A DNA stretch of 30,504 nucleotides from a virus, in IMG/VR virus record IMGVR_UViG_3300025769_000545, positions 1 through 30,504 of that record, one strand, 5' to 3'. The notes beneath the pieces were generated by a model. The model did not search any database. It was not told the origin of the DNA and saw only the letters and a list, made by a program, of their open reading frames with translations. Of the stretch, positions 3,825-25,788 are shown piece after piece; positions within the stretch are counted from its first letter, which is position 1; each line of letters opens with the position of its first letter. Both the position numbers and the translations under genes were made by a program.

Positions 3825-4135
3825 TCAATTATACTTACTTTGCCACCTATAACAAAATAGACTGCCAGTTGTTCAGCCTTTTTGCCGTACTCAATAGCAA
3901 ACTTTTTAATTTGTTCCTTTTCAATGATAGTATCTGGAATAGCTACAACATAATTAATTACGGCTTCCTCAAACATTTTGTTGCTTTTCTCATCATACCA
4001 ACAACCAACAGCATGGCTTATTTGTGTATATCCACCGTAATTAGTGCAGAGCAGTTTTTTTAATTCTTGGTGCTCTTTTAATAAAGTTTCACCGTTGTTT
4101 TTATTTGTAGGCAAAACTATTTTTGCTTCAATCAT
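3815..4135 (-). CDS. hypothetical protein, 106 aa
   Basis: This is the first gene of the early operon after the non-coding region. It is soluble, with an alternating beta/alpha pattern: MIEAKIVLP, then LLKEHQELKKLL, GGYTQISHAVGCWY, EAVINYVVAIP, KKFAIEYGKKAEQLAVYFVI, then a C-terminal strand KVSIIELD. This resembles the small ferredoxin-like phage domains that have a GG-[YW]-T plus G-x-W signature (DUF3574-like), a fold-level guess only. I moved the start to the ATG at 4135, because GGAG lies 6 bases before it after an AAACAAACAA leader. The ATG at 4171 has no ribosome binding site. Its UGA stop lies within a hammerhead core. Confidence 0.75.
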   Translation of the reverse strand: MIEAKIVLPTNKNNGETLLKEHQELKKLLCTNYGGYTQISHAVGCWYDEKSNKMFEEAVINYVVAIPDTIIEKEQIKKFAIEYGKKAEQLAVYFVIGGKVSIIELD

Positions 4136-4429
4136 ATTTAACTCCATTGTTTGTTTAAGTGCATTATGCACAAATTGACAATCAATGCAATAGTTATTTT
4201 TGTCTATTTTGTCGCACCAAAAAAACAGTCATTAGTGAGCTATTAGTCCTAATAGATTACACACTAGAGTGACTAGTATAAGTATTACTATAATGATATT
4301 AATGCTGAGTAGTAACTCAAGTATAAGCCATAGTTTATTCATTAGGTATAAGCCTTAGTTAATCATTAAGTATAACACTAAGTATAACTATCATTAATAG
4401 TATCAATTATATCTATAACACATAGTATG

Positions 4430-4462
4430 AACCTTAGTATATCATATACGGGAACCTTAGTA
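4430..4462. repeat. left arm of 33 bp inverted repeat (ACTAAGG element)
   Basis: This arm, read on the minus strand, matches the plus strand at 4742-4774: ACTAAGGTTCCCGTAT, then ATGATATA, then CTAAGGTT. The differences are one substitution and one single-base indel. Each arm itself holds two ACTAAGGTT copies about 24 bp apart. It may be a bidirectional phage RNA polymerase promoter pair, a replication origin element or a terminase recognition region. Confidence 0.75.
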
Positions 4463-4487
4463 CTTCAGGTTGTATTGCTGCTAATGT

Positions 4488-4503
4488 GTTGCAATTATGC
4501 AAC
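4488..4503. repeat. perfect 6 bp hairpin GTTGCA-ATTA-TGCAAC
   Basis: This is a short symmetrical hairpin lying between the arms of the long inverted repeat. It is AT-looped, has no U-run on either strand, and could be a protein site or a processing signal. Confidence 0.45.
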
Positions 4504-4741
4504 AGTATAACTAAGGTGATGGCCTGCGTTAGGCTAAGTGTATAACTAAAAGCAAAAAAACAGACTAGCTCACACACACACCAAAACACAAAGGCCGCCG
4601 TTTTACTCTATATATGCCTAAAGTTTGCCTATATGCCTGCTTTTTTTGTCTGCGTGCGGGCTGCTATTGGTGATGCCTACGGGGGAAACCGCACGGCGTA
4701 TATACGATATACCCTCTCATATTTTTCTATCAAATATTCCG

Positions 4742-4774
4742 ACTAAGGTTCCCGTATGTGATATAACTAAGGTT
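4742..4774. repeat. right arm of 33 bp inverted repeat (ACTAAGG element)
   Basis: This is the partner of 4430-4462, in the opposite orientation and about 280 bases away. The shared sequence includes ACTAAGGTTCCCGTAT and TGATATA. It lies 26 bases past the end of the wall-hydrolase gene (on the downstream side), so it could also mark the end of the late transcript. Confidence 0.75.
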
Positions 4775-4799
4775 AAACTATGTGTATATATCTTTACTT

Positions 4800-5267
4800 T
4801 TATTTCTTATTTATAAACTCTCTAGCCTGCTTTAAAGTGTAATTAGCAGGTAAACTATGTTGTGATAAGACAACAGCTTCATCAAATACCTCTTTTTGTA
4901 AGTATAATTTAACTAAAGGACTGTCTAAACCATTTTCATACTCTATAATAGCTTTAGCCATTGATGGTATATCATCATTAGTAACTTTATTTTTCCCTAC
5001 TTGAGATGTTACATAACCAGCATAAGATATAGTATCATTCTCAAATGATGGTGCAAATTGATTCATAATAGAATTAATATCACCTTTATGTCTTTTTATT
5101 TTAGTGTTTAAGTCTCTCATAAGAGCCCTTACACCCATTTGTGGACTGTCAAACACTGCAAATCTTTCAGCATAAGTCTCTCCAGTTTCACCTGCATATC
5201 CTTGACCTATCTCAATATTAGCTGGATTATTATACCTTTTTTGCTCTTTTTTAACTATTATATCCAT
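4800..5267 (-). CDS. putative virion-associated or lytic cell-wall hydrolase-like protein, 155 aa
   Basis: The N-terminal 60 residues carry the pattern RYNNPANIEIGQGY, FAVFDSPQMGVRALMRDL, followed by a NQFAPSFENDTISYAGYV segment. This N-P-x-N-I ... F-x-x-F-x-x-x-x-x-G-x-R-A layout is typical of a phage family annotated as structural lysozyme or endolysin-like proteins, which I recall as having a lysozyme-like fold. There is no signal peptide or membrane span. It overlaps the end of the large terminase gene by 10 bases and uses GAGAGGAC as its ribosome binding site. It is the last gene of the late transcript, next to the lysis and packaging genes, which fits a role in host wall degradation. 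The catalytic residue is not assigned. Confidence 0.6.
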   Translation of the reverse strand: MDIIVKKEQKRYNNPANIEIGQGYAGETGETYAERFAVFDSPQMGVRALMRDLNTKIKRHKGDINSIMNQFAPSFENDTISYAGYVTSQVGKNKVTNDDIPSMAKAIIEYENGLDSPLVKLYLQKEVFDEAVVLSQHSLPANYTLKQAREFINKK

Positions 5268-6898
5268 CTGTCCTCTCTTGGGGTTCTGCCTATAGCAGAC
5301 TCCATAAATTGTTCTAATTCCTCGTTTAATAAGTCCTCTTTATGCTGATTATAAGACATAATTTGGTCTCTATCCATACGCTCTACCCAGTAGTTAGCAG
5401 CTATTGCTAGTGCATCTATCTGGTCATCATGCCTTAGAGCACCTTTATCCCTAGTTATTCTAGTCATTTGTCTAAATAACTGGTGGTCAGGCTCTAATTT
5501 AAAGTCTTCTTTGATAAGTAAATCATCAACAACTAGCCTATGTCCATTCATAATAGGCTCTAAAGTATCAATAATACGCTTTTCTTTTTGTATATTATGT
5601 CTAACTTCTTCTATTTCACACGGATGTATTTGTGCCATAATAGGTTTTAATAGCTGTGTAGCCATACCATCACCAAAGTTACTCTCAATGACCACATAGT
5701 TAACATCTTGTTTCTTAGCAATGTTAGCTAGTCTAGCCATAGTGTCCTCTGAGTAACCACCATCTAATGCTCCGATAGCAGTCAGGTATAACACACCGTG
5801 TAACATCTTTAATACACAGTAAGCTGTTTTGTCTTCTCCTCTTCCAGAGGGGTCTATAGACATCACAGAGCCCTCAAATTGCGTGAACTCAGGACTTGTG
5901 TACATAGGAGCCACATAGTAATCTCCTTTAAGGCCTACATTAGGTATCTCAGGGTCTAACGCTTTTATCTGTTCAACTCCTGATGCCCATTGTACTTTAG
6001 CAGGCGCTTCTTTCCACGTTGATGAGCCAGATAATACAATTAAGTCATTCAACTTAAGCGGGTATCTGTTAGCATCAGACATGGTTGTGTCCAACATAAA
6101 CTGTAAGTTAAACCCAGAACGGCCATAAGATGACATACGTTCTAGTAAGTCCACCTCATCAAACCTTTTAGGGTCTGTAGGTTTACCTATTTTGTCTGTT
6201 ACATTAGCAATCATAGGAGCTATCTTGTGTCCATAGCCTGTAAGTTGCTCTTTAGTTGGATATAAAGCTGTCCATATCTTAGTTTTATAACCACGTTCTT
6301 CTAAATCATTGTATAATGACATCTCAGTTTGTGGTGTACCAAGAAATATAATTCTTCCTACGTTAGGTTTAATGATTGCATCAAATTCTTTTACAGTCTC
6401 ACCTAATCTATCACGCATAAGCTGCGTTTGTGAGTTATTAGCTGACTCTACGTCATCCGCAATAATTAAATCTGCACGTGAACCTGTTAACTGTCCAGTA
6501 ATACCCATAGACTTAACTGATGGTGCATGACTGGCTGTAGCTGGAGCTACATCAAAGCTAACCTTTGAACTTCTTTGATTATCTCTAGGGACAAGATGCT
6601 TAAGTATAGGCATCTCACCTATCAGTCTCTGTGTGAATGTACTAAAGTCATCCGCCCTAGATTTTGAAGCTGATACCACAAGTATGTTACGTTGTGGATT
6701 TAATAATAATTGATGACATACAAATGCAGATGTAATCCATGACTTACCGACACCCCTAAAGGCCTCTATCACAAGTCTCTTTTCGTCTGACTGTAAGTAA
6801 TCAGCAATATCGTATTGTACAGGTGTTGGCTCTGGTAAGTTTAAGTGTTTCCAACACAGATACAAAAAATTCTTAAAGTTTTTTATTTTACTATTCAT
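5258..6898 (-). CDS. T7 gp19-like terminase large subunit (DNA maturase B)
   Basis: This is the packaging ATPase and nuclease that drives DNA into the prohead and cuts concatemers. It aligns with T7 gp19 almost end to end. Walker A EAFRGVGKS is at about 45-53, followed by VKSMGITGQLTGSRAD, Walker B LIIADDVES at about 144-152 and the coupling motif LGTPQTE. The nuclease acidic residues are in SIDPSGRGEDKTAY (about 349), IESNFGDGM (about 404) and RHDDQIDALA (about 489). All look intact. I chose the ATG at 6898, which overlaps the upstream TAG (ATGAATAG), and it starts like gp19. The in-frame ATG at 6919 is possible; neither has a clear Shine-Dalgarno. A second, unrelated large terminase lies at 24454-25788. 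Confidence 0.95.
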   Translation of the reverse strand: MNSKIKNFKNFLYLCWKHLNLPEPTPVQYDIADYLQSDEKRLVIEAFRGVGKSWITSAFVCHQLLLNPQRNILVVSASKSRADDFSTFTQRLIGEMPILKHLVPRDNQRSSKVSFDVAPATASHAPSVKSMGITGQLTGSRADLIIADDVESANNSQTQLMRDRLGETVKEFDAIIKPNVGRIIFLGTPQTEMSLYNDLEERGYKTKIWTALYPTKEQLTGYGHKIAPMIANVTDKIGKPTDPKRFDEVDLLERMSSYGRSGFNLQFMLDTTMSDANRYPLKLNDLIVLSGSSTWKEAPAKVQWASGVEQIKALDPEIPNVGLKGDYYVAPMYTSPEFTQFEGSVMSIDPSGRGEDKTAYCVLKMLHGVLYLTAIGALDGGYSEDTMARLANIAKKQDVNYVVIESNFGDGMATQLLKPIMAQIHPCEIEEVRHNIQKEKRIIDTLEPIMNGHRLVVDDLLIKEDFKLEPDHQLFRQMTRITRDKGALRHDDQIDALAIAANYWVERMDRDQIMSYNQHKEDLLNEELEQFMESAIGRTPREDRWI

Positions 6899-7181
6899 CA
6901 GTGTCAAATGGAACATCATCTAAGATGTTATCAGGTTTCTTTTGTAAACTATCTGTACTATATGTTTTACACACATCTAAACAGACTTTCATTTCTGATG
7001 CTGTTAGATTATCACCTGATTTTAACTTTGCGTATGCATGTGTAACTAATAATTGTGGTAATTCTTTAATAATCTTGTCTAAATCAGATTGTTTATTACA
7101 ATCACATGAAGTATATTCACTTCCAGATGCACCACAGTTACCGCATTTCTTCTCAGTCATTTCTATTGGTCTATTATCCAC
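6891..7181 (-). CDS. putative small terminase subunit (T7 gp18-like position) with N-terminal zinc ribbon
   Basis: This 96-residue acidic protein lies immediately upstream of the T7-like large terminase, where T7 has gene 18 (89 residues). The N-terminus carries CGNCGA and CDC, a Cys cluster like a zinc knuckle. The remainder is helical, ending in an acidic tail (DDVPFDTDE). Residues about 50-75 (AYAKLKSGDNLTASEMKVCL) resemble the helical core of small terminases. The GTG at 7181 is preferred because GAGG sits 8 bases before it; the ATG at 7160 has only weak support. The assignment as a small terminase rests mainly on position and size. Confidence 0.6.
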   Translation of the reverse strand: MDNRPIEMTEKKCGNCGASGSEYTSCDCNKQSDLDKIIKELPQLLVTHAYAKLKSGDNLTASEMKVCLDVCKTYSTDSLQKKPDNILDDVPFDTDE

Positions 7182-7308: not shown

Positions 7309-7394
7309 TATAAAATTTGTCTAAAAGGATTTGCTTCAATATCATCTACATTGAAACGTATTTTTTTATATAATTTTTTAATAAATTTAATCAT
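7308..7394 (-). CDS. very small basic protein, 28 aa
   Basis: This is a short frame starting MIKFIKKLYKKIRF and ending NPFRQIL. It fills the gap between two genes with TAATG overlaps at both ends (7308-7310 and 7394-7396), and that is the main support for it. The N-terminal half would form a basic amphipathic helix. No family is recognised. It might be a leader needed only for translational coupling. Confidence 0.5.
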   Translation of the reverse strand: MIKFIKKLYKKIRFNVDDIEANPFRQIL

Positions 7395-12637: not shown

Positions 12638-13983
12638 TAGCTGTACTCCTGTTCGTTAATGTTCTTTGTGTTCAATCCATAATATCCACTTGGACAATCG
12701 TATTCCCAAATGCTGTCGTCACCTGAAGTTGATGTACCTGCTGAAGCTACTGCTGTAGTTCCGAAATAGCCATTACCGAAGTTTAAAGAAAATTTTTGTT
12801 GAGGTAAAAAACAAAAACTTACAAAACCATCACTTCCAACAACTGTATTTATATTTGAAAATGCTTCATTAGTTCCACTTGCTGGGTCGCCACTATTAAA
12901 CCAAGTTCCATTTTTACCCCACCATATTTTGCCATTATCTTTATCAAGTGCTATCATAACAATATCATTTTGTACTATTGCACTTCCATAACTATCGTAG
13001 CTTTGATTGTTTCTTTTATACCCAGTTCCAGTAAATATTCCCCATGAATATAATTGATAACCTACATAATTTGAAGTTAATGAATTATCAGCACTCCATA
13101 TTCCGATATGATTATCGTTATCACTTCCTGATTTTTCACATTTATATTCCATATACCATTTTCCTTGTGAAACAGCTATTGTAGTTCTAAAAGGTTTATC
13201 AGATAATTCTGCTGATGTTATGCTTAAATTTCCATTTCCTAAAGTTGGTGCAGTTCCAGAATAATCTAATGGATTTGCTGTAGCAAAAACATTACTAGGT
13301 GTATCAATCGTCTGTGTCATTGTACCATTAACTGTGAATGTATTTGAATTACCAGAACTGTCTGTTCCAAAAGCACCTGAGTTTTCAAACTTTAAGAAGA
13401 AACCATTTGTACCATAAGTAACACTAGGTGCAGTTTTAGGTTTCCATATTCCAGTTGTTGCATCTGTTTCCCCGAAAGTATCTGCGTCATAAGCTGTGCC
13501 ATCTATGAAGTGATAGTGTGCTAATGAACCATTAAGATAACCAAATTTAGTTCCGCTTGTATTTTCAGTTACACCAACAAATGTATCTTTACCATTATCT
13601 GTGGATACAAAAGAAGCATTATTATCTGGGTAATTACTTGTCGCAAAACTTGTTTCTTGCACACCATTAACATATAATTTTACTCTATTACTAGCTGTTC
13701 CTTGTGTACTATCAACACTCCAAACTATATGATACCAAGCGGATACATCTCTAAATAATCTATTAGTTAATAAATCCATATCTGTACCTGAAGTGTTATC
13801 AAAAAATCTTAATTGGTCTGATGTATTAAAATAGATTTGTGATGCAGAGTCAGTTGACCCATCTTTACCATAGATACAATTATCAGAACCATTTGATGAT
13901 TTTTTAATCCAACAAGATATTGTAAATATTTTTGCACTTGTAGGTGAACTAGAAAATGTTTTAGATAAATAAGTTGATGCCAT
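12637..13983 (-). CDS. LamG-SPRY adhesin, 448 aa
   Basis: An N-terminal concanavalin A-like (LamG/Laminin_G_3) domain covers about 1-190: FTISCWIKKS, WYHIVWSVDS, RVKLYVNGVQ, YLNGSLAHYHFIDG. A SPRY-like domain covers about 262-400: GKWYMEYKCEKSG, NHIGIWSADNS, IALDKDNGKIWWGKNGTWF. Both fold as jelly-roll beta sandwiches used for sugar or surface binding. This suggests recognition of host glycan. It starts one base into the stop of the large fibre and ends in the start of the next gene, so it is strictly co-translated. Domain identification is by pattern and has not been tested by search. Confidence 0.75.
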   Translation of the reverse strand: MASTYLSKTFSSSPTSAKIFTISCWIKKSSNGSDNCIYGKDGSTDSASQIYFNTSDQLRFFDNTSGTDMDLLTNRLFRDVSAWYHIVWSVDSTQGTASNRVKLYVNGVQETSFATSNYPDNNASFVSTDNGKDTFVGVTENTSGTKFGYLNGSLAHYHFIDGTAYDADTFGETDATTGIWKPKTAPSVTYGTNGFFLKFENSGAFGTDSSGNSNTFTVNGTMTQTIDTPSNVFATANPLDYSGTAPTLGNGNLSITSAELSDKPFRTTIAVSQGKWYMEYKCEKSGSDNDNHIGIWSADNSLTSNYVGYQLYSWGIFTGTGYKRNNQSYDSYGSAIVQNDIVMIALDKDNGKIWWGKNGTWFNSGDPASGTNEAFSNINTVVGSDGFVSFCFLPQQKFSLNFGNGYFGTTAVASAGTSTSGDDSIWEYDCPSGYYGLNTKNINEQEYS

Positions 13984-16733
13984 TAGTTAAACTGACCCCC
14001 ATTGTTAATTCCTGTTGTTACTGTAATAGAGAATGCTCTATCTGCCGTCTGACTTTCTTGGTCAGTTGCCGTAACTGTAAAGTTATAAGTTGTTTCTGCA
14101 CTATCTGTTCCACTTTCAGTTCCAGTAATTGCACCTGTAGAACTATTTAAAGATAATCCTGTTGGCAACGCACCTGAAGTAACTGAATATGCTACTGTGC
14201 TATCTGAACTTGCTGATACTGAAAATGATGCAGTACCACCTTGTGCAAGACTACCAAGTGAACCTGCTGATGTACTCCAAGTTGGAGCATCTGAAACTGT
14301 AAGTAAAGCTGTTGAACTTCTAACTGCAAGTCCATCAGGATTTTCTACTCTAATAAAATAAGTTCCATCAGTTGGTAAAGTTACATTGATAGTCAGTTGT
14401 GTAGCTGAATCTCTTGTAATTGAATTAGGATAAGTAATACCACCTACTGAATTTATAATCTCAACATTAGGTGTAATGACAAAGTTTGTTCCTGTAATGA
14501 CAATAGATGTTGCATCATTAGTAATCGTATCAGGTGAGATAGATGTAATTGTAGGTTTTGTTTCACCAATAGTTACTGAACCACCCAATGCTACATCACT
14601 ACCATTAATGGTAATTGCACCATTGTTTACAAGTCTAGCATTGTTAATAGTTCCTGAAGTAATATCTGAACCTGAAATATCTGAAACACTAAATGTACCA
14701 AAAGCAACAACATATAATTCGTCATCTACTGTAGCTCCTGAACTTAAAACAATAGATGTACCAGTTGTAGCTGTGTAATCTGATGGGTCTAAATGAACTC
14801 CGTTTAAATAAACATCTATAAATCCTGCATCATATTCTAATGTTTCACCATTATCATCTGTTCCAGAGAATGTTGTTTGACTAGCAGTTGCTGTATATTT
14901 GTATCTTCTTGATGTTCCGTTTACCGAACTACCTGCGTTTTGCCATCCTGATGCTGAATAAACTTTTAATACGTTATCTGTTGTATCAAAATATAAATCT
15001 CCAACATCTAAAGAAGTAGTTGGTGCTGATGATGATATTCTATAAACTTCACCAAAGTTATTGACTGAAGCTATATTAGTTGCAACTGTATTTACATTAG
15101 CAATAGAACCACCAACACTGTTTACGTTAGCGATTGAACCTGCAACAGTACCTATATTATTTGAACCTGATAAATCTGTAGCAACTGTTCCTATTGTATC
15201 TGAACCAGATAAATTTGATGATACTGCTGTTACATCTGAAATATTATTACCAACATTTGAAATAGCATTAGTAGCTGTTGTTCCATCTTCAATATCAGCA
15301 AGAGTTTGAATATCTGAACTTAATCCTGAAACAACACCAATATCTGTTCCATCATTGGCAACTGTTGTAATATCAGAACTAATAGAAGCTACAGTTGTAA
15401 CTTCAGTTGCTTTTGGTGTAAGTCTGTGAAAATTATAAGTATGTAATGTAGAAGTTGTTTCTACTAATACACCAAATCCAGCAGTTAAAACTGTAGAACC
15501 GCATCCATTAATTGTTACTGTATTTGATCCAGCACCATTAGTAATCGTTACTGTACCAGCAACAGGTGTTCTAGTTGTTGCAATTTCTTTAATAGAAATA
15601 ATTGTACCAGCAGCATCATTAATATCAGAGTTACTTTCTGGAAAACTTGTTTCATTTGCAATTGGAACAAAACCTCCAACCTCATCTACTAAATCTACAA
15701 CTCTTGCATCAATCGCAGCAGTTGTTGCTACATAAGAATCTGAAGATGACCAACTATCTCCTGAAGAAATTGTTTCAGTTGAATCTTGTCTAAAGTATCT
15801 TGCATCAGAAGCTGATGTTGTAAAAAAACTTGTATCGTCTGGTGTATGTGCAGAATGTTCTGCATTAGTTACAATAACTTCATCTGCAATTTTATCTGCT
15901 GTAACTGCATTATCATTTATTTTTGCAGTTGTAATTTGTGAATCTCCAATGTGAGCTGTATCAATTGAACCATCTACATAATGCTCACTGTCTATACTAT
16001 CGTCTGCAATCTTAGCATTAGTTACTGAATCTGCTCCAAGTTTTGCAGTGGTAATAGCACTATCAGCAATTTTTGCTGTTGTTACATTTGCATCAGCAAT
16101 GTGAACGGTATCTACAGCACCATCTGCAATTTGATCAGAATCAACAGCATCATCTGCTATTTTAGCATTGGTTACAGCGTCTGCTGCAATAGCACTTGTA
16201 GTTATAGAATCCCCAGCTAGTTTAGCAGCAGTAATAGATGCGTTTGTAATTTTTTGAGTTGTAACAGCATCTGTTTTTAAATTTGCTGAATCAATAGAAT
16301 TTTCTGGAATAGAAGGATTGATTTGAGATAATGCACCAATAAATACACTGGTAATCGCTTCATTAGATAATGAACCACTATCCCATGTTACATTTACAGT
16401 TGTATCAGTAGAAAAAGATGAACTAGATATTGTTCCATAAATTGTACCAGGTGTTGCTGCTACAACTTTAATTCTTCTACCTTCATGGTAGATTGTAGAT
16501 ACATCTGCACCTGTAATTGTAAAAGATGTTCCAGAAGCATACGTTGCTGTAAAACTTCCATCACCATCTCCATACTGAACCCATTGTGAATCGTTATACC
16601 ATTCTCTAATATCAGCAGTAACAGCTCTAAATGCATTATTAATATTTGAAGGTAACATACCTTCTGCAATACTAATACCACCTACTGAAGTGTTGTTTGC
16701 TGCTGTTGTTGAATAATCTTTTATACCTGCCAT
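13983..16733 (-). CDS. large tail-fibre protein with repeat shaft, IPT/TIG and Ig-like C-terminal domains, 916 aa
   Basis: The N-terminus (about 1-135; MAGIKDYSTTAANNTSVGGI, then SQWVQYGDGDGSFTATY) is a typical virion-anchoring module of marine phage fibres. Residues about 150-290 form a shaft of about a dozen short repeats of the type TTAKIADSAITTAKLGADSV. A second beta part (about 590-680) has a VYLNGVHLDPSDYT pattern. The C-terminus has an IPT/TIG domain (about 724-812; TITSISPDTITNDATSIVIT) and an Ig-like (He_PIG type) domain (about 814-912; GALPTGLSLNSSTGAITG). The only GATC sites lie in the codons for the N-terminal ~400 residues, which fits a recombination or assembly junction inside this gene. 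Confidence 0.85.
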   Translation of the reverse strand: MAGIKDYSTTAANNTSVGGISIAEGMLPSNINNAFRAVTADIREWYNDSQWVQYGDGDGSFTATYASGTSFTITGADVSTIYHEGRRIKVVAATPGTIYGTISSSSFSTDTTVNVTWDSGSLSNEAITSVFIGALSQINPSIPENSIDSANLKTDAVTTQKITNASITAAKLAGDSITTSAIAADAVTNAKIADDAVDSDQIADGAVDTVHIADANVTTAKIADSAITTAKLGADSVTNAKIADDSIDSEHYVDGSIDTAHIGDSQITTAKINDNAVTADKIADEVIVTNAEHSAHTPDDTSFFTTSASDARYFRQDSTETISSGDSWSSSDSYVATTAAIDARVVDLVDEVGGFVPIANETSFPESNSDINDAAGTIISIKEIATTRTPVAGTVTITNGAGSNTVTINGCGSTVLTAGFGVLVETTSTLHTYNFHRLTPKATEVTTVASISSDITTVANDGTDIGVVSGLSSDIQTLADIEDGTTATNAISNVGNNISDVTAVSSNLSGSDTIGTVATDLSGSNNIGTVAGSIANVNSVGGSIANVNTVATNIASVNNFGEVYRISSSAPTTSLDVGDLYFDTTDNVLKVYSASGWQNAGSSVNGTSRRYKYTATASQTTFSGTDDNGETLEYDAGFIDVYLNGVHLDPSDYTATTGTSIVLSSGATVDDELYVVAFGTFSVSDISGSDITSGTINNARLVNNGAITINGSDVALGGSVTIGETKPTITSISPDTITNDATSIVITGTNFVITPNVEIINSVGGITYPNSITRDSATQLTINVTLPTDGTYFIRVENPDGLAVRSSTALLTVSDAPTWSTSAGSLGSLAQGGTASFSVSASSDSTVAYSVTSGALPTGLSLNSSTGAITGTESGTDSAETTYNFTVTATDQESQTADRAFSITVTTGINNGGQFN

Positions 16734-16887: not shown

Positions 16888-18353
16888 TATCTTAATCCTG
16901 CTTTACTTGCTATTATATCAATACCTTGTGCGTGAGTAAACAAAGTGCCAGAAGGTACTTTAACATTAGCTCTAAAATATCTACCAGATTGTCTAACTGG
17001 ATTAACACCTGTGCTATTCATAGCAACAGAAGCTGATTCTACAGGGGTATCAGCAAGTCTATCTCTAGTTTTAATAGTAACTGTAGCTTGTGCATCTACA
17101 ATAGGTCTAACTTGTTGTACATTTGCTCTGAAATTAGGGAATATTTCAAATTCAGTTGTTTCTAATTCTATTTCATTTGAAGTACCTGAATAAATAGCTG
17201 CTTTGTAATTATTATCTATTGCACCTAATAACAATTGTCCACCAGACCAAAAATCAGTATCTAAAGCAATATTAATATTTTCTAAATTTTGTGATAATAA
17301 ATCCATTAATTCTACAGTGTATGCACCTACAAATTGTGAAAAGATAAATGATGCATTAGATTCAGCTAATGACCATTTTTGTGTAGCATAGTTATAAATT
17401 AAAAGTCTATCACATATACCAGTTGTATTAGTTGGATTTTGTGCAGATGGATATAGCCATAAAGCTAATTGATTAAATGGATCTACTGCTGCACATATAC
17501 GATCTGAAAATGCTTTGTTTAAATCGTTTTCAAAAAATCTATTTACTTTTTCTGCTCCAATAGGAATAATAGTATCTCCATTAATTTCAAAAAAACCATC
17601 GTCTGCATAAAAGAATACTTGTCTATTATCTTGGCATACAGTTTTTCCATAAACTGCTCCCCTGTTTGGTGATACAACTGAAAATCTAAATATTGTTGCT
17701 CCACCCACAAAGTCCATACGAACTATTTGATTTTGTCTAAATACATATCCAACTTCTCCAGAGGTAATTGCTACAATCTCTCCACCTGATCCAGGTAAGT
17801 CTTGTTGATCTGCTAATTTTTTACCAGCACTCCAAGTTGTAATATCATTAATACCTGACCATTGAACTCTATTTTGATTTGATGATTGATTACCTGTGAC
17901 TAAAAAATCTCTTATGACTCCTGATACTCTAAATACAGGAGGTGTTCCATCAGTTGCAATACTAGATAAATCTGCAAAGTTAGTTGATGTACCCATTAAA
18001 TAATATTGAGGTGCATCTACTCCATTACTTGCAATAATATAATTTCCAAATTGTGAGAATGTCCAATAGTCTGTATTATCTCCTGTAAGAGATCCTTTTC
18101 TAGAAGTAAATGTTCCAGCATCTAATTGATAAATGTCAGTATTGTTTGCAACAAAGTTGTATACATTTCCTGCGTTATCTCTGAATGAACCACCACCTCT
18201 GCAATCAGTTCCAATATTATTAGTAGAATAATTAACAAGAGAAGGAAATCTTTTATAAGACTTAGAAGCATGATAAACATTTGTAGCTACGTTTGCACCT
18301 GGATTGTTATGTTTAGGTTGATCAGGTAGCCATTCTCCAAAAGGAACTTGCAT
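16887..18353 (-). CDS. P22 gp10-like packaged-DNA stabilisation / tail hub protein, 488 aa
   Basis: The start (MQVPFGEWLPDQPKHNNPGA, then ASKSYKRFPSLVNYS) and the blade-like repeats (FADLSSIATDGTPPVFRVSG, QSSNQNRVQWSGINDITTWS, GEIVAITSGEVGYVFRQNQI) fit the beta-propeller family of P22 gp10 and the SU10-like tail nozzle. Such proteins plug the portal channel after packaging and form the tail tip. The length is close to the family's 470-520 residues. AGGAT precedes the ATG. It follows the adaptor gene, as in P22-like short tails, and is not the T7 tubular tail protein B, which marks this half as different from T7. Confidence 0.8.
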   Translation of the reverse strand: MQVPFGEWLPDQPKHNNPGANVATNVYHASKSYKRFPSLVNYSTNNIGTDCRGGGSFRDNAGNVYNFVANNTDIYQLDAGTFTSRKGSLTGDNTDYWTFSQFGNYIIASNGVDAPQYYLMGTSTNFADLSSIATDGTPPVFRVSGVIRDFLVTGNQSSNQNRVQWSGINDITTWSAGKKLADQQDLPGSGGEIVAITSGEVGYVFRQNQIVRMDFVGGATIFRFSVVSPNRGAVYGKTVCQDNRQVFFYADDGFFEINGDTIIPIGAEKVNRFFENDLNKAFSDRICAAVDPFNQLALWLYPSAQNPTNTTGICDRLLIYNYATQKWSLAESNASFIFSQFVGAYTVELMDLLSQNLENINIALDTDFWSGGQLLLGAIDNNYKAAIYSGTSNEIELETTEFEIFPNFRANVQQVRPIVDAQATVTIKTRDRLADTPVESASVAMNSTGVNPVRQSGRYFRANVKVPSGTLFTHAQGIDIIASKAGLR

Positions 18354-22119: not shown

Positions 22120-22389
22120 CTACTTAGTAGATTGGCGTGTTAGATTTTCTAGCTCTGAGGAAGCTAGTTTACCTGTTTCCATGACGCTAACAAGGTGGCC
22201 TTTAATCTTGTCTAGCATATTATATGCCATCCAAAGTACTTGTCTTTGGTCATGGTCATTGTAACTTGTATTAAATATCTCTGATTTATATTGTTCAGCG
22301 AGATACTCAAAAGCCTCTTTCAATAAAGGGTCGTTAAGAAGTTGTTTAGCTTTCTGACCCTGTTGAATCTGTTTGTCTAGGTTGCTCAT
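22120..22389 (-). CDS. conserved hypothetical protein between portal and scaffold, 89 aa
   Basis: This is a helical, charged protein: KAKQLLNDPLLKEAFEYLAE and QVLWMAYNMLDKIKGHL, then ETGKLASSELENLTRQ. I recall similar small helical proteins between portal and capsid genes in this kind of phage, but no function is known to me. It overlaps the portal gene by 44 bases, so it is translationally linked to portal. A chaperone or assembly role is a guess based on place. Confidence 0.65.
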   Translation of the reverse strand: MSNLDKQIQQGQKAKQLLNDPLLKEAFEYLAEQYKSEIFNTSYNDHDQRQVLWMAYNMLDKIKGHLVSVMETGKLASSELENLTRQSTK

Positions 22390-24457
22390 TAAAAAACTCT
22401 TTTTGTTCTTCCATTATTTTTTTAAATATATCACCAGATTGTTTAACCTGTTGTTGTTCTATCATAGATCTGTTCTTTAATGCAAGTTCATCTACTTTAG
22501 TACCATATTTTAATTCCATGTCTTTTACTTTTAACTCAAAGTCTAATAATGTTTGTTTCATTTGAGTTTCAAGTTTTTTGAGTTCAATTTGACTATTAAG
22601 AACAGCTCTTTCATTTTCACCTTGTACTTGAGCTAATGAAACTTTCTCGAACTCTGTTGGAGGTTTAGGAGGTAATTGAGGCATTTGTGATTGACCTACA
22701 TCTGGATCCATGAAGTATGGTTCTACATTTCCTAATCCTGCATTTTCTACAAGTTTCTTTAATGTATGATAAATATTTTTAACATTAACAACTGGGCCAA
22801 ATACATTTTGTTGTAAGTTAATAGCTTGTAGTTGTCTTTCTAAAATAGAATTTAATAAAATTAATTGTTGTTCTTTAGAACCTGTACCAAGTCCTACAGC
22901 TACAGTAACATTCATTCTATCTCTCCATTCATATGGTTTCATAGGAATAAACTTACCTCTAATTCTAACGATCTGTTCTTTTTGTTGATACTTACATACA
23001 AGTTCAAATATTTTTCTAGCTAAATCTTTAACACCAGTTTCTGCAAAAGTTCTGGCAATAAGTTCTAATCTCATTTGAGATTGAGTTAAGATTTGGTTTA
23101 ATCCAGTTGCAGTTTTATTATTTAATGTATCTGCTTGAATACCTTGTGATTGTCTTGTTTGTCCTGTTCTAGATTCTTTTACTGAATCTAAATAAGCTAA
23201 CATACCTGATGCTTGATCAGTAATAGGTTGAGCTTGTAATGGTAAAATAACATTTGATGGTGGTTGTTTAGTTCTAACAATTCCACCTGGTCTATTTGTT
23301 AATAGATCATCCATTGCAACTTGACCATCTTGAATAGCTACTCTGTTATTATTTGTTAGATACATATTGTCTAACATTTGACGCATAACAGTTGATTTAA
23401 TTAATTGGATATCTTCTACTAATTCTGAAACTGATCTACCATAAAATCTATGTGGCATCATAATTGGTGTAACAGAAATAAATGGCATTGAATCAATTTC
23501 TTCAATACCTAAAACTTTATATGCACTATCACCTGCTATACATGCTTTAATAAGTTCTGCTTTACCATCACCATTAATATCTATTCTTGCATAACATTCA
23601 TGTATTAAAACTTCATCTGTACTATCATCACCTCTATCTTGTGGTGCAGAAAAATCTGTTTCTTGAAATCTAATATGTCTATCTTCTAAATAATAATTTG
23701 TATCACCAATAGGTAAGTTGTTTACTACCTCTGGATCATATCCCATTTCAATTAATTGAGTTCTGCTCATGTTAGTTCTATGAGCTATAAAATTTGCATC
23801 TTCAATAGACTTAGCTCTACGTTCAATTAAAAATTCTTCAGGTGGGATAGGTTCAATATTTACTTTACCATACTTTGTCGTTTTATATAAAACAACATCA
23901 TGATATTTAATTGTATCTAAAACTTCACCTTGATCATCTTTTAATTCTTCTTCATACTCTGTGTGTTGTGATACATTAATTTCAGGATCTTTAGTTAAAT
24001 CTATAAACTCATCATCAGTTAATTTTTTGTATTCTTCTCGAGTTGTTTTTTCAGACTCATCCCAATAAACTTTTAGTATTCCATTTTTTTGAATTAGTGC
24101 ATCTTTGAACGCAGTATATAAAGCACTGAATCCATTATTCTGTTTATAGAAAATATAATTTAAATAATCAGTTGCTTGTTTAGCTGCTTCTTCATCTTCT
24201 GGCCCAACAGGTTCACATTCAAATACATTATCACTTGCAGTAAAGATTCTCATTAATGAAGGCATTAATCCTTCAATTGTATCAGAAACATCTGTAGAGA
24301 TAACTTGTGATCTACCTTCTTGTTCATTACCAAAAGGTCTACCAAGATAATATTCTAAAGATCTTTTTCTTCTACTAACAATCTCACCACCAATGTAACC
24401 TGATGATGCTCTAATTTCTCTATTTAATATTGATAAAATTTCTTGTTCGTTTTTCAT
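22346..24457 (-). CDS. portal protein (P22/SU10-like), 703 aa
   Basis: This is the dodecameric channel through which DNA is packaged. The N-terminal half has the diagnostic segments EYYLGRPFGNEQEGRSQVIS then VSDTIEGLMPSLMRIFTASD, an acidic insert (DEEAAKQATDYLNYIFYKQN), and the central PIPPEEFLIERRAKS and HECYARIDINGDGKAELIKA. RFYGRSVSELVEDIQLIKST then MRQMLDNMYLTNN marks the clip and stem region. The C-terminal 120 residues form a Gln/Glu-rich coiled tail (barrel). It starts 4 bases inside the upstream large terminase gene (ATGA), so portal and terminase are a single translation unit. Confidence 0.92.
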   Translation of the reverse strand: MKNEQEILSILNREIRASSGYIGGEIVSRRKRSLEYYLGRPFGNEQEGRSQVISTDVSDTIEGLMPSLMRIFTASDNVFECEPVGPEDEEAAKQATDYLNYIFYKQNNGFSALYTAFKDALIQKNGILKVYWDESEKTTREEYKKLTDDEFIDLTKDPEINVSQHTEYEEELKDDQGEVLDTIKYHDVVLYKTTKYGKVNIEPIPPEEFLIERRAKSIEDANFIAHRTNMSRTQLIEMGYDPEVVNNLPIGDTNYYLEDRHIRFQETDFSAPQDRGDDSTDEVLIHECYARIDINGDGKAELIKACIAGDSAYKVLGIEEIDSMPFISVTPIMMPHRFYGRSVSELVEDIQLIKSTVMRQMLDNMYLTNNNRVAIQDGQVAMDDLLTNRPGGIVRTKQPPSNVILPLQAQPITDQASGMLAYLDSVKESRTGQTRQSQGIQADTLNNKTATGLNQILTQSQMRLELIARTFAETGVKDLARKIFELVCKYQQKEQIVRIRGKFIPMKPYEWRDRMNVTVAVGLGTGSKEQQLILLNSILERQLQAINLQQNVFGPVVNVKNIYHTLKKLVENAGLGNVEPYFMDPDVGQSQMPQLPPKPPTEFEKVSLAQVQGENERAVLNSQIELKKLETQMKQTLLDFELKVKDMELKYGTKVDELALKNRSMIEQQQVKQSGDIFKKIMEEQKEFFNEQPRQTDSTGSES

Positions 24458-25788
24458 ACTATATATTTTGTTTCAACATAAATGGGTCTATCCCAATCAG
24501 AAGAAGTTACAGGATCGTGTACACATCCATATCTAAAAGCATCTGCAGCATGAGAACACCAATCGTGTAAAGGTTTATTTTTAAAAACCTGGTTTTTCTC
24601 ATCCCATTGCTTTCGATATTGACGCATAGCATCAATGCCTAATTTGCACTTTTCTCTGTCAAACCAGCAATATGGTAACACATTTCTTACTGATTCGATA
24701 CCATGATCTACTTCTAATTTAGGTGCTACCTCAAAGTCAATACCTAAGTCTGAAGCAACTTCTAATCTTGATTTACCTGTTCCTAACTCTCTAGCTTGAA
24801 TATCGTGAGGAGCTATATGTCTTTCATATGCATAACCTTTGTTATGTAGAATATCTGCATAATGCATAAGACTTTCGCCACTATTTTCATAATAATCTAT
24901 AATATGTAGTTCTTCTCCAACTCTTTGAACAAACCAAATAGCTGTACTATCTCCAATACCTAAATCCCACCATGTTTCTACACCCATAACTTTATCGTAT
25001 GGTACATTTGTTATTCGATCTTCATTATCAGCATTTGTCATTAATTTACCATAATATGATCCAGATACAGCAGCAGTAAAAGAACATTCAAATTCTTGGT
25101 TATACTGTTCTTCTGTCATAATAGATCTAGCATGTCTAAGTTCTTCATCAGGAATAACTTGTGTTTCACTAGCTCTATACATTGCTGCAAACCAATTAGG
25201 ATCACCTCTTTGTGCATAGTCATAGACTTCCCAGAATTGATTATGACCCATAGGTGTTCCAATAAAAATAACAAATCCTTGTGTATCTGCTATTGCTGGT
25301 CTAATAATTTCTGTCCAGGTTCTTGGTGCCATGATGGCATACTCATCCATAACAACTCCATGAAATCCTAATCCCCTAAGTGAATCTGCATGATCTGCTC
25401 CAAAGATTTGTATTTTAGATTCATTCCAAAAATCTATTTTAAGTTCAGATTCATTTCTTTGTCCACCAAGTTGTAATAAAGGTTTAGAATATTGTTTTAA
25501 TAAATCCCATGCAATAGCTTTACCTTGTCTATAGGTAGGAGCTATGTATGCAAACTTTTGTTGTGCATTATTTGCTGCGTGTGAAATGAGTTCGTTGATT
25601 GCTAATACAGATTTACCAAAACGTCTATGACAAACAAGTACATTAAATCGTTTTAGTTTTTGATGAACCTCTTTTTGGAGAGGTCTAGGTTTGTAGGGAA
25701 TGGTAATATTTACTGTTTTATTCTTCCCACTTGATATTGACTTTGATTGGGCTTGTTTCGATTCTGTTTGTTGTTGGTGCTTTTCCAT
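24454..25788 (-). CDS. second terminase large subunit (SU10/HMO-2011-like), 444 aa
   Basis: This is a packaging ATPase and nuclease of a family unlike the T7-type one at 5258-6898. Walker A is CHRRFGKS (about 53-60), the Walker B-like acidic site is GVVMDEYAIM (about 144-153), and a coupling motif GTPMG follows at about 177-181. The RNase H-like nuclease begins WWDLGIGDSTAIWFV (Asp275, Asp280) and ends with DWCSHAADAFRYG. All catalytic residues seem present. It overlaps the small terminase upstream by 71 bases and the portal downstream by 4, the normal packaging gene order. With its portal it appears complete, so the other terminase is the redundant one. Confidence 0.92.
   Translation of the reverse strand: MEKHQQQTESKQAQSKSISSGKNKTVNITIPYKPRPLQKEVHQKLKRFNVLVCHRRFGKSVLAINELISHAANNAQQKFAYIAPTYRQGKAIAWDLLKQYSKPLLQLGGQRNESELKIDFWNESKIQIFGADHADSLRGLGFHGVVMDEYAIMAPRTWTEIIRPAIADTQGFVIFIGTPMGHNQFWEVYDYAQRGDPNWFAAMYRASETQVIPDEELRHARSIMTEEQYNQEFECSFTAAVSGSYYGKLMTNADNEDRITNVPYDKVMGVETWWDLGIGDSTAIWFVQRVGEELHIIDYYENSGESLMHYADILHNKGYAYERHIAPHDIQARELGTGKSRLEVASDLGIDFEVAPKLEVDHGIESVRNVLPYCWFDREKCKLGIDAMRQYRKQWDEKNQVFKNKPLHDWCSHAADAFRYGCVHDPVTSSDWDRPIYVETKYIV

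Follow-up and report, generated by a model that had tools for sequence, protein, structure and literature searches.

In T7, pausing of the phage RNA polymerase (RNAP) at the concatemer junction, together with lysozyme, serves packaging; the promoters phiOL and phiOR are secondary origins, and end formation has been explained by a hairpin model. T7 and T3 both carry phage promoters near the two ends. The left-end promoter lies just inside the end and points right (T7 405; T3 366–388), and the right-end promoter, phiOR, is also rightward, on the plus strand (T7 39229; T3 37432), facing outward on the linear genome. The promoter sites that we located in T3 (14), SP6 (13) and Syn5 (2) are all on the plus strand, and the annotated primary origin of T3 (5682–5758) sits just downstream of a phage promoter (5642–5664).

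The terminal repeats in the records of these phages measure 160 bp in T7, 231 bp in T3, 237 bp in Syn5, 206 bp in P-SSP7 and 174 bp in SP6. The repeat is followed directly by ATCTGTT in T7, T3 and Syn5, by ACCTGTT in P-SSP7 and by TCTGTT in SP6. A block precedes the right repeat copy in T7 (AAAAATCTGAGTGACTA), T3 (AAAAATCTGAATGGGTA), Syn5 (TTTTGTGAAGGGGTA) and P-SSP7 (AAATGTCTGAGGTCATA); it is absent from SP6, in which the right edge alone matches. The P-SSP7 edges are given as experimentally determined (PMC3350473), and ATCTGTT is described as a class II pause/termination signal of T7 RNAP that is present at the concatemer junction (PMC11617373).

The nearest characterised promoter that we found, ATTGGGCACCCGTAA, belongs to the marine cyanophage Syn5, a Voetvirus. 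It has the core ACCCGTA in common with the Pelagivirus end promoters discussed below (GTACCCGTA), from which it differs in its upstream half (ATTGGGC versus TTAAAGT/TAAGGT). Syn5 also resembles Pelagiviruses in its repeat edges, TGTGAAGGGGTA and ATCTGTT, and in having a promoter just after the gene for the terminase large subunit, TerL (44800). Unlike them, it has no more than two sites when one mismatch is allowed; the gene strand carries both, and its right-end site points rightward. HTVC019P (KC465901), of the same genus as the phage studied here, has in its record an exact 162-bp terminal repeat that starts right after GGGGGTA; CTGTTTTTTT lies at 161 and a site resembling a promoter at 340. 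It differs in promoter type: GTTACACTATTAG occurs at 340 (the place of the left-end promoter P+ described below), at 7347 (before SSB) and at 17074 (before the structural genes), and no leftward site was found in the last 3.6 kb. Judged by sequence, HTVC019P has kept the place of the promoter and changed its sequence, a promoter change within one genus.

We analysed 30,504 nucleotides of the IMG/VR virus record IMGVR_UViG_3300025769_000545 (the window). We consider it highly probable that its intergenic stretch 4172–4799 represents the joined genome ends of a T7-like Pelagivirus, and that the arms of an inverted repeat within it are paired phage-RNAP promoters flanking a terminal repeat. Sequence comparison establishes the promoter motif, its occurrence ahead of other operons, the terminal-repeat edges and the direction in which the sites point.

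The locus and its inverted repeat

The left part of the window belongs to a Pelagivirus, a T7-like phage of the marine SAR11 bacteria, as its DNA resembles Pelagivirus records. Its minus strand carries, in order, a T7-type TerL gene (DNA maturase B; 5258–6919), a lysozyme/endolysin-like gene (4800–5267) that is the final gene of the right genome end, the intergenic stretch, small early genes and a single-subunit RNAP gene truncated by the contig end (2–1783; phrog_414, 1.2e-186). The RNAP and its counterpart in Pelagibacter phage Eistla share 86% identity, with 100% of 594 amino acids covered. The intergenic stretch lies between the TerL-side genes and the early genes, the position expected of a T7-type end.

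The rest of the window includes sequence of another type. The portal gene (22346–24457) is closest to that of HTVC106P (54.8%), and the tail-fibre gene (13983–16733) is a hybrid, HTVC106P-like over residues 4–288 and Pelagivirus-like over residues 347–916, the phage type switching within it at about 15430–15870. With two different TerL genes (5258–6919 and 24454–25788) and this switch, the window may be a chimeric assembly or else a true recombinant; either leaves the inverted-repeat finding untouched.

The inverted repeat, described in the earlier note as 33 bp long, is real and longer than was thought. Its left arm (4418–4461, minus strand) and right arm (4742–4785, plus strand) are 44 nt each, 82% complementary and about 280 nt apart, the longest among the inverted pairs listed. 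When the two halves of the intergenic stretch are aligned locally with gaps, the score is 38, compared with a mean of 16.8 and a maximum of 29 in shuffled sequence (0/1000 reach it). Between its two ACTAAGG copies, one arm has a 1-nt gap relative to the other. The exact 16-mer ACTAAGGTTCCCGTAT is found as the same inverted pair, at near-equal spacing, in two related contigs (L013 and L016).

Other kinds of element did not emerge. An Rfam scan of 4000–4900 gave no match at the gathering score, a scan for −35/−10 hexamers of host sigma-70 promoters found three against 4.1 expected, which is not above chance, and counting exact 10-mers over whole genomes returned low-complexity words only.

The probable promoter motif at the junction and before operons

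We built a weight matrix from the regions upstream of RNAP and SSB genes only (185 regions, 115 distinct; about 28 bits), so that the junction was tested independently. The lowest score accepted for a site was 12 in genome scans and 11 in the junction survey. The consensus of this motif is TTAAAGTACCCATAGTAGATA. Relatives carry the extended element AAGGT(T/A)CCC(A/G)TA before the RNAP gene, and the form upstream of SSB, whose gene comes after that of RNAP, is AAGTACCCATAGTAGAA.

Three matches only in the window score at least 12. One, on the minus strand at 1822–1844 (score 34.7), is the putative promoter of the RNAP gene and belongs to the training class. The second, P+ (4440–4462, minus strand; 21.8), lies in the left arm and is predicted to direct phage RNAP towards the early genes and the RNAP gene at the left genome end. 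The third, P- (4741–4763, plus strand; 26.4), lies in the right arm and is predicted to be antisense to lysozyme and TerL at the right genome end. Transcription would begin near 4443 for P+ and near 4760 for P-, with AAGTACCCATAGTAGATA as the template sequence at which the Pelagivirus RNAP is predicted to start.

The same arrangement recurs in relatives. Eistla and HTVC142P each have six sites scoring 12 or more: P- and P+ at the junction and one each at RNAP, SSB, the structural operon (in the last part of nrdB, immediately ahead of the operon) and the tail fibre, all but P- on the gene strand. HTVC168P has these six and one more in its primase gene, and the divergent P+/P- pair is present in all three phages. 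HTVC031P has matches at RNAP, SSB and the structural operon and two in coding sequence, with none at the junction, and HTVC109P has seven matches, some weaker and some stronger, RNAP and SSB among them. The mean best score in 20 simulated sequences of 79 kb was 9.0; one of the 20 contained a chance match that, at 25.7, is on a par with P- and exceeds P+.

Element and strand were also followed in 13 IMG/VR records, in which ARGTWCCCNTW matches 68 times, with 64 matches on whichever strand predominates in the record concerned, while its reversed control has none in any. Three of the four minority-strand sites are P- (G009, G010 and G013); the fourth, in G006, is elsewhere. In this 42-kb relative, the promoter-like site on the minus strand lies on the early-gene flank of the junction and not on the lysozyme flank.

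The check proposed in the earlier note, a search of the phage group for the element in front of other operons, is therefore positive in both the relatives and the IMG/VR records. A T7-family RNAP is encoded and the same motif stands before several operons, nearly always on the gene strand; very probably, then, each arm holds a promoter recognised by that single-subunit polymerase. The suggestion of polymerase promoters facing both ways is thus supported, with P+ and P- as the sites concerned. On the other suggestion in that note, binding sites at an origin, what the sequence shows is a pair placed on either side of the terminal repeat. A likeness to the T3 promoter core CACTAAAGGG, suggested at the same time, does not hold, since CACTAAAGGG is the initiation half in T3 and ACTAAGG the upstream half here.

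Two sets of motif matches were set aside as false positives. Plus-strand matches at TerL+395, such as HTVC031P 40143 inside a peptidase gene, are coding sequence, and minus-strand matches near TerL+836 are in, or resemble, lysozyme coding sequence.

For HTVC031P RNAP, a PHIRE-predicted promoter, AACTAATGCTCAATTTAGAGATA, has been published in a study that gives 8 of 26 tested polymerases as active (PMC11475235). AACTAATGCTCAATTTAGAGATA occurs once in HTVC031P (MH598800), at 33805 inside the coding gene gp42, and is unlikely to be its promoter; the sequence proposed here is therefore the better candidate to test. In a search of mostly open-access literature for Pelagivirus promoters and ends, this PHIRE prediction was the only promoter of the group that we met. 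The motif provides a testable promoter for the RNAPs of an abundant group of SAR11 phages.

The predicted terminal repeat and genome ends

P+ and P- flank a predicted direct terminal repeat of 144 bp (4566–4709, minus strand), the edges of which were placed by homology. The repeat is single in the window contig because the ends are joined. Just ahead of it in gene direction is the conserved block AAAAATATGAGAGGGTA (4710–4726, minus strand), the counterpart of AAAAATCTGAATGGGTA in T3, and just after it is GTCTGTTTTTTT (4554–4565, minus strand), the counterpart of the ATCTGTT pause signal at the concatemer junction of T7, T3 and Syn5. The window thus has the conserved edges of a T7-type end, GAGAGGGTA before the repeat and GTCTGTTTTTTT after it. 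Other Pelagiviruses have AAAAATCTGAAGGGGTA-like blocks before the repeat and GTCTGTTTTTTT after it, or GTCTATTTTTTT in the HTVC109P type, and their edge blocks are 135–200 bp apart, mostly 159–169 bp, compared with 144 bp in the window.

Physical ends in the records agree with these edges. A 40-kb contig (G001) has an exact terminal repeat of 162 bp with the same left edge as HTVC019P to 1 nt; a pattern search that matched mostly unrelated contigs was used for this contig alone. Among 25 contigs that end within the 660-bp junction span, five (L077, L084, L085, L093 and L102) have their end at the predicted right edge to within 1 nt. L085 is the same contig as G001, and L093 has no near sibling from which to predict the expected edge. 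The right end of HTVC019P is 4 nt beyond the position at which the contigs end. End overlaps in G002 and G003 were rejected as physical ends, as they lie in the lysozyme gene.

Downstream of P+, a leader with degenerate ACTAAGG/ACTTAG repeats (4229–4439, minus strand) leads to the second CTGTTTTTTT (4219–4228, minus strand), about 215 nt from P+ and a possible pause or stop for P+ transcripts. CTGTTTTTTT occurs twice on the gene strand in Eistla, HTVC168P, HTVC142P, HTVC031P and the window, both copies being in the junction, and once in HTVC109P. The short repeats between P+ and the second CTGTTTTTTT read ACTTAGG in Eistla and ACTAAGG, every 11–13 nt, in HTVC168P. Such stretches (L021 7690–7890, L022 39355–39405 and window 4229–4417) are reminiscent of the CCTAAAG arrays of T7. 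HTVC031P (40292–41046) has terminal-repeat edges without a recognisable P+ or P-.

The Pelagivirus ends are T7-like in several respects. Like T7 and T3 they have a direct repeat of similar size, exact in HTVC019P and G001 and predicted in the window, with matching edges (in T7 and T3, AAAAATCTGA..TA before the repeat and ATCTGTT at once after), and phage promoters near both ends; like T7 (CCTAAAG) they have short repeats beside the terminal repeat. P+ corresponds in place and direction to the left-end promoters of T7 and T3. They differ from T7 and T3 in promoter sequence, in the lysozyme gene between TerL and the end, and in the ACTAAGG/ACTTAGG-like form of the repeats and their position between P+ and the second CTGTTTTTTT. 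Above all, P- is leftward where phiOR is rightward, such that P+ and P- face inward in the linear genome and the right-end promoter of T7, T3 and Syn5 faces outward. These edges mark genome ends that the fetched genome records mostly conceal by circularising. As both edges match from coliphages to cyanophages to pelagiphages, they offer a simple rule for locating T7-like ends in metagenomic contigs.

Possible roles and spread of the inward-facing pair

In gene direction the junction would read lysozyme gene, leftward P-, pre-end block, repeat of about 144 bp, GTCTGTTTTTTT, rightward P+, leader, CTGTTTTTTT and early genes. In the linear virion genome P+ and P- would lie just inside the two ends, and phage RNAP would fire at both. 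From P+, the putative counterpart of T7 phiOL, RNAP would enter the early region, first crossing the roughly 215-nt leader with its many repeats and then reaching the second CTGTTTTTTT. Polymerase that has come through the late genes would pause at GTCTGTTTTTTT and so mark the cut, as in T7. From P-, RNAP would run antisense into lysozyme and TerL; no conserved gene that it might serve was found downstream.

The likeness of P+ and P- is not confined to the core. Position 17 of the motif is T in all distinct 23-mers of P+ (21/21) and P- (9/9), compared with 6/21 for RNAP promoters and 2/28 for SSB promoters. Allowing one mismatch, CTATGTGTATA lies within 60 nt downstream of 16/36 P+ and 10/18 P- sites and follows none of the gene promoters (RNAP 0/49, SSB 0/39). 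By these features P+ and P- are one subclass. Their shared downstream module accounts for the extra length of the inverted repeat over that of a promoter, each arm probably consisting of a promoter copy and about 20 nt of initially transcribed sequence. The A+T content downstream of P- (0.73) and P+ (0.69) is barely above that at RNAP (0.69) and SSB (0.71) sites and hence provides no A+T-rich origin signature.

The shared subclass, the position at the end and the origin role of phiOL and phiOR in T7 favour RNA-primed inward synthesis, in which P- would prime leftward DNA synthesis from the right end and complement P+ at the left. The main alternative, to which we give appreciable weight short of an even chance, is that P- is no part of replication and drives a regulatory antisense RNA against lysozyme and TerL. 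P- is indeed directed into late genes, CTGTTTTTTT is absent from its strand in the window, and LUZ100, a T7-like phage, has been reported to produce antisense transcripts in its structural region (PMC10134795). However, in subclass signature and downstream module P- goes with P+ and not with the gene promoters, and it adjoins the terminal repeat. We therefore judge priming from P- the likelier of the two. A broader scenario is more tentative, and we would sooner doubt it than adopt it: in one Pelagivirus group, the same-direction end promoters of T7 may have been replaced by a mirror-image, inward pair, matched in both promoter and initially transcribed sequence and acting as two RNA-primed replication origins that copy the genome from both ends towards its middle, with packaging left to the late-operon polymerase at the concatemer-junction signal. 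The inverted right-end promoter in any case provides a natural variant for asking what phiOR does.

The pair is unevenly distributed. Our junction survey covered 88 loci, 76 of them distinct, after seven loci without an anchor and 11 that were too short or partial had been left out. P+ scores at least 11 in 46 of the 57 distinct junctions readable on both sides and less in the other 11, which include HTVC031P. Both promoters are present in 19 of these 57, P- alone in one and neither in ten. P- was found in 22 of the 76 distinct junctions with a readable left side and is missing from 54. A TerL tree accommodated 73 of the 76 rows and 21 of the 22 with P-. A branch with SH-aLRT support of 99 splits the tree into 37 and 36 rows; all 21 belong to the 37, and none to the 36. 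This distribution requires at least eight changes on the tree, and P- has therefore been repeatedly lost or gained within the group. A coding match at TerL+392/395, which marks the HTVC031P-type peptidase, is present in 14 of the 16 rows of the group that are free of P- and in none of those with it; P- and the lysozyme cassette seem to move together.

These counts also bear on the idea that the arms act as DNA structure, folding in single-stranded replication intermediates and helping to make or finish the left end as in the T7 hairpin model. The arms bracket the terminal repeat and their similarity extends beyond the promoter core to 44 nt. Against this, the second arm exists in a minority of junctions (22/76) and the repeat with its edges is present in the rest, the arms are about 280 nt apart, and their conserved part is a promoter motif found singly elsewhere. 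We regard this as improbable. Slightly more doubtful still is that the element is an operator, bound by a phage regulator of the RNAP gene and the ends, and not itself a promoter. A MarR-type gene adjoins RNAP in HTVC019P and HTVC109P, and the site upstream of RNAP is partly palindromic in Eistla, HTVC142P and HTVC031P. Yet no MarR or integrase gene is annotated in the early region of Eistla, HTVC168P or HTVC142P, the element stands in one orientation at the operon starts of SSB, structural genes and tail fibre, and its length and layout fit a promoter for a single-subunit RNAP such as that of Syn5.

The ACTAAGG copies noticed at the outset were found within a base of their description, four on the minus strand (1837, 4353, 4432 and 4455) and three on the plus strand (4510, 4742 and 4766). 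Seven copies in the window, against 3.84 expected, are not rare (10 of 100 shuffles reach seven), whereas their clustering, also pointed out earlier, exceeds chance: six lie within 420 bp, and 200 shuffles gave at most three, once. Chance, in the form of short A+T-rich repeats in a non-coding stretch, would suit the lack of window-wide over-representation of ACTAAGG and is already refuted by the shuffles of repeat and cluster and by the conservation of the pair in relatives. Three of the seven copies (1837, 4455 and 4742) are in promoter cores, two (4432 and 4766) are just 3' of the two end promoters, and two (4353 and 4510) are outside every motif-scored site. ACTAAGG as such is thus composite and not one element.
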